DNA of 64,000 nt from Planctomycetota bacterium (GTDB lineage Bacteria; Planctomycetota; Phycisphaerae; UBA1845; UTPLA1): assembly GCA_016235815.1 (NCBI GenBank), contig JACRIM010000034.1, forward strand, positions 62,001-126,000, written 5' to 3'. Below are positions 7,458 to 32,655 of the stretch, piece by piece. Both the position numbers and the translations under genes were made by a program. A model generated the notes under the pieces. It ran no database searches. It was not told the origin of the DNA and saw only the letters and a program-made list of their open reading frames with translations. Every line of letters starts with the position of its first letter. The stretch's first letter is position 1.

Positions 7458-7989
7458 GCTGAGACAATGAGGGCGAGTTGTTCACTACCCGTCTAAGTCA
7501 ATCATCGCGTCATCACTCGACCCTGCAATACTACAGATTAGATTCTCTCGTTAAATCGTTCGACGGCACCCAACGCTCGTAACTCATGCTCTCACAGTGA
7601 CATACCACATTTCACCGCCCGGCTGAAACACTGAGCAAGATTGATAGGTGTAAGTGAAAAAAAAGCGAAGACAGCAATGGTGTGCCAATGTGTCAAACTA
7701 AACATCGATCTTCCATCGTCCAACGACGGCACCCGGCACAAAAACCGCACAAACGGTTTGTGCGTTTTTGTGGCCGCCAGCCAGGTTTTTGTGGTTTTTT
7801 GTGGGGGGTAGTTTTTTTTACAAATCGTAGAGGCGAACGGGCATTCGCGTCGGAGATCCGCCGGGGCGGACCTACGTCGCGCAATAGATTCATACCCCAC
7901 CTGATCCCCCAGTCCCTCATTTCGATGTTTCGACTTTTCGACGTTTCAGGCGCTCTCGAATCCTTAAACCCTTGCCCCGAGGTTCACCC
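7458..7989 (+). other. Long non-coding stretch in the accessory patch
   Basis: No convincing gene in either strand. The stretch is low in GC and has runs of A and T, a strong inverted repeat (7737-7772), and three copies of a TTTTTGTGG word just after it. The right part (about 7850-7990) returns to GC-rich sequence and is the leader of the next gene. Confidence 0.6.
7737..7772. repeat. Near-perfect inverted repeat, about 17 bp arms
   Basis: Left arm CACAAAAACCGCACAAAC, right arm TTTGTGCGTTTTTGTG, with one bulged C (about 7746) and a three-base loop. The word GTTTTTGTGG recurs at about 7785 and 7796. It could be a factor-independent terminator or a protein-binding palindrome; the T-rich sequence downstream weakly favours a terminator. 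Confidence 0.6.
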
Positions 7990-20376: not shown

Positions 20377-20393
20377 GGTCCGCACAGCGGACC
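20377..20393. terminator. Possible weak terminator between transketolase and zinc-ribbon genes
   Basis: Perfect 7-bp stem GGTCCGC-ACA-GCGGACC. It lies downstream of no minus-strand gene end directly (the transketolase gene ends at 20421), and on the minus strand it is followed by a short T-rich stretch, so it could end transketolase transcripts. Confidence 0.3.
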
Positions 20394-20420
20394 CTACGTG
20401 GATTCAACCGATTCAATTCG

Positions 20421-28876: not shown

Positions 28877-31800
28877 TCAGGCAACCGCCGGCTGCTTGCG
28901 ATCTTCCTCGAATCGCACGCTCACTCGCTTCGAGACGCCAGCCTCCTGCATGGTGATGCCGTACATCACGTCGGCGATGCTCATCGTGCGCTTGGAGTGG
29001 GTGATGACGATGAACTGGCTGAGCGAGACGAATTCCTGAATGACGTGGTTGAAGCGGATGTTATTGGCCTCGTCCAGCGGGGCGTCGACTTCGTCCAGCA
29101 CCACAAAGGGCGACGGGCGGCTGCGGAAAACGGCCATGAGCAGGGCGATGGTCGTCAGGGCTTTCTCGCCGCCGGAGAGGAGGCTGATGCTCTGCGGCTC
29201 CTTGCCGGGGGGGCGGGCCATGATTTCGATGCCGCATTCCAAGACGTCGGTCTCGTTGAGCAGGGTCAATTCGGCCTTGCCGCCGCCGAAGAGCTTCTTG
29301 AAGAGGGCAGTGAAGTGTTCGGCCACGCTCTTAAAGGTTTCGAGGAAGCGTTGCTGGGATTCGAGATTGAGCTTGTCGATCAACTCGATCAGTTGTTTTT
29401 CGCTGGTGCGCAGGTCGGTGAGCTGGGTGCTCAGGAACTCCTGACGCTGCTCAAGCTGAGCCTGTTCGTCAATGGCGTCAAGATTCACGTTGCCGAGGCG
29501 TTCGATTTTCTGGCGAAGATCATTGATCTCGGCCTCGACGGCGGGCCAGTCTTCGTCCTCGGTCGGTGTGTAACCTTGATACTGTTCTTCAAGGTTGACG
29601 GAGAGTTCTTCGGCAATTCGCGCGATCAGGTCCTCAAGGCGGACGCGGACTTCCTGCAGCTTGATCTGGCGATCATGAAGCTGGGCGTCGACCTGTTCGA
29701 GATCGGCGCGAAGTTGACGGGCGGCGGCGGCGAGCTGCTCGACTTGTGTGCGGCGGTCGTCGCGTTCGGTTCGTAAGGCGTACGACTGCTCGGTCAGCGA
29801 CGTGTGTTCGGTCTTGAGATCGGCCAGTGTCTGCTTGGCCGTTTCCATCTGCCGCTGGGATTGATCGATTCGCTCCTGGGCCTCAATGACGTCGCGTTCG
29901 GCCTTGTCGCGGTCGGTCTGCAACTGAATCTTGGCGGATTGCAGATCGCGCACTGACTCGGCCACGCCGGCACGACGTTGCGACAATTCACCGGAGCGAA
30001 CGCGGGCGGCGGTGATCTGCTCGGCGATGGTCTGGCGGCGAACAGCAAGCTCCTCCAATCGGGCGGAAAGCTGCTGCACCATCCGCTCGCCCTCGCTGCT
30101 GCGCGTTTCCAGTTGGGTCAAGGCCTCCTGGCTGGCTTTTCCACGCTCCTGCATCTGCGTGAGGCTTTGCATGAGCATGGCCACCTCGGTCGCGATGACG
30201 GGGCGCTCGGCCGAAAGCTGGCGAACGATTTCATCCACGCTGGATAGCTGCGCCACGGTTTCGACGCGCTGCGTGTTGGCTTCGTAAATGGCGGTGCGGA
30301 GGTTCTGCTGCAATTGATCGAGGTGGCTGATTTCCGACTCGCTCGCGGAGAGTTGTTCGGACAATGAACCGATGCGGCCTTCCACTTCTTCCAGTTGGAC
30401 GGACAGTTCGCGCAGTTCGCTGCGACGGCTGATCAGGCCGGTACCCGTGCCGAGCGGCCCGACGCCGACGCGGCCGTCCGGCTCCCACACCAAACCATCC
30501 ATGGTGACAAAGCGTGCGATGCCGGCGTCGAGTTTCGCCAGGCGGCGGGCGTCGGCCGTGCTTTCCACGACATAGGTGCGGCCGAGGAGGTGCCGGGCAA
30601 GCCGTTCGCAGTCGGCTGGATAGCGCACCCAATCGAGCAAATTGGCGATAAACCCTTCCTGGCCGGACAGATCGGGACCGCCGATGGCCGGCGGCACGGC
30701 GTCGAGGCAGAATGCCCGGACCGGGCCGGACAATTCGGCAATGGCGTCACGATCTTCCAAGAGGGCATCCCGCTGATCGACGATGAGGTATTTTTCGTAA
30801 TTGCCGAGCACGGCTTCGACCAAGCCAGCGTGGGCGACATCGGCTTCGAAGAGTTCACCGACGGCGCCGCGGACGTAAGCAAAGGCTTGAGGCCTGAGGC
30901 TTGAGTCTTGAGAACTGAGGGCGGCATCTCGTTTTTCGAGGATTTCTCTCGCGCCGGTCAAGAGGCCTTCGTGCTTGCGATCCATTTCCGCGAGCAACTG
31001 ACGGCGGCTGTCGAGGCCGCTGCGGTATTCCTTTGCGGCGGCGAGTTGATCCTGAAATGCGACGCGTTGGCGGGCCGCTTCGCCGGAACGTTCGCGCGTC
31101 TCGTTGAGCGCCTTCGTCTGATCGGCGATCAAGACGTCGATTTCGTCCCGCCGATTGACCATTTGCTGCGATCGGCCCATTGCTTCGGCCAATTCGGTGG
31201 CGATGACTGCGTCGCGTTCGTCCAGCTTTGCTTTCTGCTGTGTGAGTGATTCGTGCTGAAGGTTCAGCCCCTGGATTTCATTGTGAAGCTGGCTGGTGCG
31301 TCGGAGCAGGTCGATGATGCCGGCCTTCTCGTCTTCGAGGCGCGAGTGGGTTTCGTGTTGTTCGTGGGCATGGGCGCGATCCTCTTCCTGCAGGCGCAGC
31401 AGGTCTTCATGCACCGTGGCCAGCTCGGCTTCGATTTCCGCCGCGGCCGCGTTGCCTTCGGCGATTTTCGCGTCGAGGGCCGCGACCTGCTCATCAAAGC
31501 CGGCGAGGCGTTCGCGCGAGCGGGCCAACAGATGCGACTGATCGGCAATGCGTCGCTCGGATGCGGCGATGCGCTCTTCGTGGGCCGTGATCTGTGACGC
31601 CGCGGTGAGCAGTTTGCCTTCCGTTTGGGATATCTCGCGTTCGAGGTCGTTGATGCGTACATTCGCGGAGCTTGTCTCGGCGTCGTTGTTCGACAATTCA
31701 GTTCGGATTCGCGTGCCGTTGTCAGACAATTCGCTGATGACGGCGTCCAACTCGTCGCCACCCACTTTCAATCGGTGATACTCGGCAAGGGCGTAGCGGC

Positions 31801-32479
31801 TGCGCAATTCACGAAGCTGCTGCACATATTGCTGATAGTTTCGCGCCTTGCCGGCTGCGAGCTTTACGCTGCGCAGGCGCTTATCGACTTCGTCGACGAT
31901 GTCCTGCAGGCGCAGCAGATTCTGATTGACGCGTTCGAGGCGGCGCTGGGCTTCTTTCTTGCGGACTTTGTATTTGCTGATGCCCGCGGCTTCTTCAAAG
32001 ATGAGCCGGCGGTCTGTCGGGTTGGCCTGAAGCAACACATCGAGGCGGCCCTGCTCGATCATGCTATAGGCATCAACGCCCACGCCGGTGTCGAGGAAGA
32101 GTTCCTTGATATCCTTGAGCCGGCACGACTGGCCGTTCATCAGGTACTCGCTCTCGCCGGAGCGAAACAATTTCCGCGAGACGACGACTTCGGTCTGGTC
32201 GGTGGGGAGCGTGCCGTCGGTGTTGTCAAAGGTCAGGTCGACCTGCGCCATGCTCATGCTCTTGCGCGTGCCTGAGCCATTGAAGATGACGTCCATCATC
32301 TGCTTGCCGCGCAGGCTCTTGGCGGATTGTTCGCCGAGGACCCACTTGATGGCGTCGACGACGTTGCTCTTGCCGCAGCCGTTGGGGCCGACGATACAGG
32401 TGATGCCGGGACCGAAATCGAGTTCGGTCTTGTCGGCAAAGCTCTTAAATCCGGTGGCTGTGAGTTTCTTGAGAATCAT
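28877..32479 (-). CDS. smc: Chromosome partition protein SMC
   Basis: 1200-aa SMC ATPase, which with ScpA/ScpB organises and segregates the chromosome. N-terminal head with Walker A GPNGCGKSN, two long coiled coils (about 170-500 and 680-1030), a hinge near 530-670, and C-terminal signature LLSGGEKALT plus Walker B VVLDEVDAPLDEAN. The start MILKKLTATGFKSF at 32479 is preferred to one 18 bases upstream. Codons 521-532, at the coil-to-hinge junction, are encoded by a five-unit heptanucleotide tandem repeat giving LSSQDSSLRPQA, an unusual insertion for a conserved gene. Confidence 0.95.
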   Translation of the reverse strand: MILKKLTATGFKSFADKTELDFGPGITCIVGPNGCGKSNVVDAIKWVLGEQSAKSLRGKQMMDVIFNGSGTRKSMSMAQVDLTFDNTDGTLPTDQTEVVVSRKLFRSGESEYLMNGQSCRLKDIKELFLDTGVGVDAYSMIEQGRLDVLLQANPTDRRLIFEEAAGISKYKVRKKEAQRRLERVNQNLLRLQDIVDEVDKRLRSVKLAAGKARNYQQYVQQLRELRSRYALAEYHRLKVGGDELDAVISELSDNGTRIRTELSNNDAETSSANVRINDLEREISQTEGKLLTAASQITAHEERIAASERRIADQSHLLARSRERLAGFDEQVAALDAKIAEGNAAAAEIEAELATVHEDLLRLQEEDRAHAHEQHETHSRLEDEKAGIIDLLRRTSQLHNEIQGLNLQHESLTQQKAKLDERDAVIATELAEAMGRSQQMVNRRDEIDVLIADQTKALNETRERSGEAARQRVAFQDQLAAAKEYRSGLDSRRQLLAEMDRKHEGLLTGAREILEKRDAALSSQDSSLRPQAFAYVRGAVGELFEADVAHAGLVEAVLGNYEKYLIVDQRDALLEDRDAIAELSGPVRAFCLDAVPPAIGGPDLSGQEGFIANLLDWVRYPADCERLARHLLGRTYVVESTADARRLAKLDAGIARFVTMDGLVWEPDGRVGVGPLGTGTGLISRRSELRELSVQLEEVEGRIGSLSEQLSASESEISHLDQLQQNLRTAIYEANTQRVETVAQLSSVDEIVRQLSAERPVIATEVAMLMQSLTQMQERGKASQEALTQLETRSSEGERMVQQLSARLEELAVRRQTIAEQITAARVRSGELSQRRAGVAESVRDLQSAKIQLQTDRDKAERDVIEAQERIDQSQRQMETAKQTLADLKTEHTSLTEQSYALRTERDDRRTQVEQLAAAARQLRADLEQVDAQLHDRQIKLQEVRVRLEDLIARIAEELSVNLEEQYQGYTPTEDEDWPAVEAEINDLRQKIERLGNVNLDAIDEQAQLEQRQEFLSTQLTDLRTSEKQLIELIDKLNLESQQRFLETFKSVAEHFTALFKKLFGGGKAELTLLNETDVLECGIEIMARPPGKEPQSISLLSGGEKALTTIALLMAVFRSRPSPFVVLDEVDAPLDEANNIRFNHVIQEFVSLSQFIVITHSKRTMSIADVMYGITMQEAGVSKRVSVRFEEDRKQPAVA
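30885..30919. repeat. Heptanucleotide tandem repeat inside smc
   Basis: Five 7-base units on the plus strand: GCTTGAG, GCCTGAG, GCTTGAG, TCTTGAG, AACTGAG. The total of 35 bases is not a multiple of three. Gain or loss of one or two units would shift the smc frame; three units would add or remove seven residues. Confidence 0.9.
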
Positions 32480-32655
32480 CCGCTTGCCGGCCTCCATGCC
32501 GCAACCTGGCTTAAAATCGGTCCCCCCCAGAACGCTCCAAGGCGTTCAGTCTACGGGCTTTGCGCTAGAATTGCCAGTTGAAAATCGGCGAAAACGCGCA
32601 CCGGGAGCCGAACGGGTCGTTGGGGGTCTGGTTGGAAACCAGTTGGTCGAGAGGC

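Follow-up and report, generated by a model that had tools for sequence, protein, structure and literature searches.

The heptanucleotide tract in the smc gene of this planctomycete is probably a tolerated copy of a dispersed repeat family, CTCARGN, that was copied as a block rather than grown by slippage and is most likely functionless. It resembles an insertion that the gene tolerates and bears no sign of an on/off switch.

The tract in smc and the linker of its relatives

The tract lies in the window (the whole 64,000-nucleotide stretch of DNA that was analyzed) among the following features. Its coordinates and translation, as given in a preliminary description, proved correct when the sequence was re-read.

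28877..32497, minus strand: smc (chromosome segregation ATPase), 1206 aa, reading frame unbroken across the array; Pfam SMC_N and SMC_hinge
30536..30877, minus strand: SMC hinge domain (Pfam SMC_hinge), residues 541-654, beginning right after the array; coordinates computed from residue numbers
30884..30925, minus strand: coil-hinge linker housing the array, 14 codons (AALSSQDSSLRPQA); 7 codons in most relatives
30885..30919, minus strand: heptamer array, five units (CTCAGTT, CTCAAGA, CTCAAGC, CTCAGGC, CTCAAGC) followed by CT; from reading of the sequence and TRF

The first unit (CTCAGTT) is a variant of the consensus CTCARGN, and the array encodes LSSQDSSLRPQ, its last two bases opening an Ala codon (SMC residues 527-538). 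TRF called the tract at 30883-30912 with a period of 7, 4.3 copies and 86% matches; adjacent units are never identical, and both TRF and reading of the sequence reveal a direct repeat only, with no palindrome in the tract. It is the top period-7 stretch of the window (22/28 matches); because 22 matches were attained in one of 100 simulated windows, it is only moderately unusual when judged on the window alone. Unlike many arrays of the same genome, it is not preceded by GCGC. The solved SMC hinges have a gap at the array site in the alignment, and against the hinge construct 5h69 the array residues fall in a gap beside the coil-hinge junction. Together with the variable length of the linker among relatives, this gap agrees with the earlier proposal that a flexible loop tolerates the repeat. 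With a length only 7 codons above that of the short form, the linker does not correspond to a clean insertion of 7n+2 nucleotides; therefore, either bases have been lost or the linker is older than the array.

In the 29 relatives whose smc linker was read, the linker is compact in 25 and longer, with a different sequence, in four (G001, G008, G012, and G015). None of the 29 carries a CTCARGN array in smc, and none possesses the array residues without the DNA repeat, a comparison that the preliminary description had put forward as a check. The G008 linker is built from an 8-base unit, CTCAATCC or CTTAATCC, present four times and belonging to a different family that is dispersed within G008 (28 matches) and has no match in the present genome and one in G010. 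The present linker and that of G008 are both 14 codons long and have a common start, GCCGCCCTCA (GCC GCC CTC A). In an SMC tree of 20 rows, the present gene clusters with those of G002 and G013, which have a short linker and no array, and G008 clusters with the other three long-linker rows; two gains fit this tree equally well as one gain and one loss. The smc arrays of the two genomes may, to judge from their sequences, be of common ancestry, the tree demanding two changes either way.

The CTCARGN family in the genome and beyond

The suggestion that the repeat is a genome-wide element is borne out by its counts: the two-unit pattern CTCARGNCTCARG has 363 matches in the genome vs. 43 for a reversed-pattern control, and the four-unit pattern (CTCARGNx4) has 210, of which the smc tract is one, vs. 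4 for its reversed pattern. CTCARGN is a member of a loose class of dispersed degenerate heptamers. Among 70 arrays of this genome that were read, comprising 437 units, six types make up nearly all units (CTCAAGA, 135; CTCAGGA, 129; CTCAAGC, 64; CTCAGGT, 47; CTCAAGT, 20; CTCAGGC, 14), the variation being mostly at position 5 (A or G) and position 7 (A, C, or T). The boundaries of the arrays are in constant phase, with CTC at the start and CT at the end.

The four-unit pattern is present in 15 of 392 genomes in a scan of the phylum and in nine of 41 genomes in the set of relatives, the present genome included in both; the comparison set comprised one genome per species. Matches number 210 in the present genome, 74 in G039, 38 in G117, 25 in G008, and 12 in G015. 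The distribution of the family is patchy, and the mix of units is genome-specific: position 7 is mostly A here, mostly C in G008, and C and T in G039, and near-uniform arrays occur in G117. At least 112 stretches with the CTCARGN pattern occur in other phyla, and they appear mostly uniform by eye. The gene content suggests that the genome is that of a planctomycete; searches of the literature on heptamer repeats, either in planctomycetes or in general, found no description of a CTCARGN family.

Many heptamer arrays lie less than about 1 kb from contig ends (contigs C2, C6, C12, C22, C28, C35, C48, C53, and C56 of the present genome); composite repeats containing them therefore probably broke the assembly. 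Oppositely oriented arrays occur tens of bases apart in G117 (loci L297 and L298) and G051 (contigs C31 and C118), and such neighbors could form long intergenic hairpins.

Arrays inside genes and behind stop codons

According to gene calls made for this analysis, arrays lie within genes in 23/70 cases in the present genome, 12/23 in G008, and 2/55 in G039, and between genes in 47/70, 11/23, and 53/55, respectively. Every in-gene array is read in the CTCARG sense, the strand that is stop-free in three frames; the opposite strand contains TGA in all three. When arrays were masked before gene calling, 0/70, 1/23 (G008), and 5/55 (G039) fell inside antisense ORFs, in which the array itself would provide a stop. 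All 23 in-gene arrays of the present genome are currently in frame. Their unit number is 1 modulo 3 in 16/23 cases, vs. 12/47 for intergenic arrays (Fisher p 0.0006), with smc counted by its four strict units (15/23 if five are counted). Such an excess is expected for an inserted length of 7n+2, and it indirectly supports the earlier remark that the reading frame matters.

The array-bearing genes of the present genome include, from repair and replication, smc, uvrA (three arrays), mutL (three), holB, the gene for error-prone DnaE (dnaE2), and radA; others encode a TIGR03960 radical SAM protein, an aminotransferase, a MacB-like permease, an MFS/spermidine-synthase fusion, an S9 peptidase, and an M48 peptidase, among others. 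When MutL and UvrA were aligned with 11 and 10 relatives, respectively, every array fell in a length-variable loop, and none of the aligned relatives carried one. At two of the uvrA sites, the present protein is, by reading of the alignment, about 10 residues longer than those of close relatives, which fits an insertion of 30 nt. In smc, uvrA, mutL, and other genes, the in-frame copies record insertion into conserved genes, and a comparison of sites with and without the array could test how the repeat spreads. A tblastn search with the array-bearing genes of the present genome against the array loci of other genomes gave one weak match, to an aminotransferase; therefore, the same genes have not been hit again in those loci, the query set having omitted the YdiJ-like and FabA-domain ORFs. 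Both of these ORFs bear arrays in the present genome and in G008, by reading at different places.

DNA repair and replication genes (loci L066, L087, L069, L079, and L217, and window 28877-32497) account for 6/18 array-bearing ORFs and 10/23 in-gene arrays of the present genome. Against assumed background values of 3-8%, the binomial p is 1e-5 to 0.002 for 6/18 and 2e-4 to 0.02 for 6/28. Targeting of repair genes was a post hoc idea and was not adopted, since these genes are 0/10 of the array-bearing ORFs in G008; the excess is left as unexplained.

Placement behind stop codons was analyzed with arrays masked before gene calling and with random placement in the same gaps as the expectation. 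In G039, 29 of 48 intergenic arrays follow a stop codon by no more than 25 nt and have TGAG on the coding strand, where 7.7 would be expected, vs. two in the opposite orientation (7.2 expected); these post-stop arrays are placed tightly, 0-18 nt behind the stop codon, and in one orientation. The 44 G039 gaps for which both neighbors were called comprise 17 convergent, 25 tandem, and two divergent gaps. The tendency is weak in the present genome (6/47 vs. 1.5 expected; none in the opposite orientation vs. 1.5 expected), and no post-stop placement was found among the 11 intergenic arrays of G008.

Origin of the arrays and likeness to known repeats

In the explanation that we favor, ready-made blocks of a few heptamers would have been copied from other arrays by a recombinational or templated route, and the arrays would mainly not have grown in place by slippage. 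Copies would be retained where the harm is small, namely in frame in surface loops or behind genes, and the CTCARG sense, being open in all three frames, would permit in-frame copies within genes. In SMC, the array would contribute a flexible, polar LSSQDSSLRPQ linker, most likely without a function of its own.

Unit order was compared with within-array shuffles over 367 neighboring pairs of the 70 arrays. Neighbors are equal at position 5 in 169 pairs (179 in shuffles), i.e., without autocorrelation, which indicates that the arrays stem mainly from something other than slippage in place. At position 7, they are equal in 220 pairs (190 in shuffles; 0/1000 shuffles as high), and identical neighboring units are slightly over-represented (113 vs. 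93 in shuffles; 1/1000); some local duplication therefore happens. As for unit number, the counts of exact arrays, derived from two-, three-, and four-unit totals, are 20 with two units, 10 with three, 25 with four, and none longer in G008, and 46, 38, 50, 3, 2, and 3 with two to seven units in G039, so that the four-unit preference of Xanthomonas/Nostoc-type heptamers is present in both. In the present genome, four is also the commonest number (17/70), within a broad distribution that includes arrays of 22 units and has a tail up to 33.

Two alternatives invoke slippage itself. It is improbable that each array arose from a chance CTCA seed that expanded in place by replication slippage and mutated later, the shared motif reflecting a mutational bias of each genome. 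The autocorrelation of position 7, the coexistence of several distinct 7- and 8-base families in the same genomes, and the uniform arrays of other phyla and near-uniform arrays of G117 would fit such an origin, but one degenerate unit recurs at dozens of unrelated sites, its variation is mostly limited to positions 5 and 7 with position 5 random, and the sharp cut-off beyond four units in G008 and G039 is unlike slippage. Still less credible is a contingency locus, in which slippage of heptamers toggles smc, uvrA, mutL, and other genes for phase variation or as a mutator switch. The unit length, 7, is not divisible by 3, and smc, uvrA, mutL, holB, dnaE2, and radA, a third of the array-bearing ORFs, are genes that a mutator switch would choose; however, repair genes are absent from the array-bearing ORFs of G008, and the in-gene arrays of the present genome are at present in frame without exception. 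The near-identical units that are the hallmark of a phase-variable simple sequence repeat are absent from the smc tract and position 5 is random throughout the family, whose units are mixed, whereas the stretches in other phyla look mostly uniform. Moreover, smc is essential in many bacteria, and a switch in it would therefore be costly. The slippage switching of smc that the preliminary description had envisaged thus finds no support, since all adjacent units differ and position 5 is not autocorrelated, and a phase-variation switch was rejected as the best reading because the units are not uniform.

A functional element is conceivable, although we consider it unlikely: the arrays would be protein-binding sites or would work in RNA at the ends of genes (termination or the mRNA 3′ end), and the in-gene copies would be by-products. 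This would account for the oriented placement 0-18 nt behind G039 stop codons and the scarcity in divergent gaps (2/44), and the heptamers of Xanthomonas and Nostoc show the same placement and four-unit preference (PMC4692102). By contrast, no intergenic array of G008 lies behind a stop codon, about half of the G008 arrays that were read (12/23) lie inside genes, the family is patchy (15/392 genomes of the phylum), and part of the pattern could arise because damage to genes and promoters is avoided. With a similarly low probability, dispersed heptamers may form a general class of mobile blocks of about 30 nt (four units and two further bases), each genome having its own “dialect” of units, and a dedicated insertion mechanism favoring post-stop positions, in-frame copies in essential genes being the survivors. 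If so, the four-unit rule would stem from the copying mechanism and not from G-quadruplex formation.

The CTCARGN family resembles several known systems in part. Rickettsia palindromic elements are dispersed, short elements that also lie in frame in protein-coding genes, but they are palindromic and longer, whereas CTCARGN is a direct repeat. The cyanobacterial STRR heptamers are short tandem heptamers with several families per genome, to which CTCARGN is likened by description, not by sequence. The closest precedent, and the nearest described family, is GGGNATC of Xanthomonas and Nostoc. According to the source, which also mentions Calothrix heptanucleotides, the GGGNATC and GGGGA(C/T)T heptamers are dispersed and have a variable position and 2 to 26 units, four being preferred; they sit shortly after stop codons on the coding strand, are rare between divergent genes, and, in Xanthomonas, are 89-93% intergenic (PMC4692102). 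Within that description, CTCARGN shares the 7-base unit, dispersal, four-unit preference, post-stop placement, and rarity in divergent gaps; it differs in lacking GGG and in that, of the arrays that were read, about one-third in the present genome and about half in G008 lie in frame in genes. The Xanthomonas and Nostoc heptamers are G-rich and form G-quadruplexes, to which the authors tie the number of four units (PMC4692102). A G-quadruplex basis was rejected for CTCARGN, which has no G-tracts: GGG arises in the unit only if position 7 is G, which is rare, and in none of 70 four-unit arrays (13 of the present genome, 38 of G039, and 19 of G008) do all units carry G at position 5. The opposite strand has GG wherever position 7 is C, as in all four units of 8/19 G008 arrays, and a two-tetrad form may be possible there on sequence grounds. 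The four-unit number and the stop-codon placement thus recur with a heptamer without a G-tract, and because the printed explanation is the G-quadruplex, the four-unit rule needs another cause here.

The TAACTGA repeats of marine Beggiatoaceae are likewise dispersed heptamers with one stop-bearing and one open, translatable orientation, which their author expects to affect their distribution; they are placed directly upstream of start codons (PMC4679880), whereas CTCARGN is found behind stop codons. The (GATAGRA)n repeats of Chloroflexus aurantiacus are also a scattered degenerate heptamer family, counted as satellites of one species, and in-frame gene insertions are not described for them in the part of the source at hand (PMC6749651).

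Other repeats accompany the arrays. A GTAG-tagged, REP-like hairpin (GTAGGGTCCGCTGTGCGGACC, minus strand) is located at 20377-20397 of the window and at seven more places in the array loci of the present genome, where it sometimes adjoins heptamer arrays. GTAG-tagged palindromes are reportedly the subject of one published study. REP hairpins were rejected as carriers of the arrays, the GTAGGGTCCGC element being within 120 nt of at most six of 70 arrays (four upstream, two downstream). An 8-base array at 7920-7947 of the window (TTTCGATG TTTCGACT TTTCGACG TTTC) represents a second degenerate family that is found in other loci of the present genome. The degenerate 7- and 8-base families of these genomes include TTCCCNG, TTCGACNT, GAGGCACN, AATGCGG, and CTCAATCC, among others, and they are often strung together between genes (loci L062-L097 and L217-L234 of the present genome, and loci of G039 and G008).
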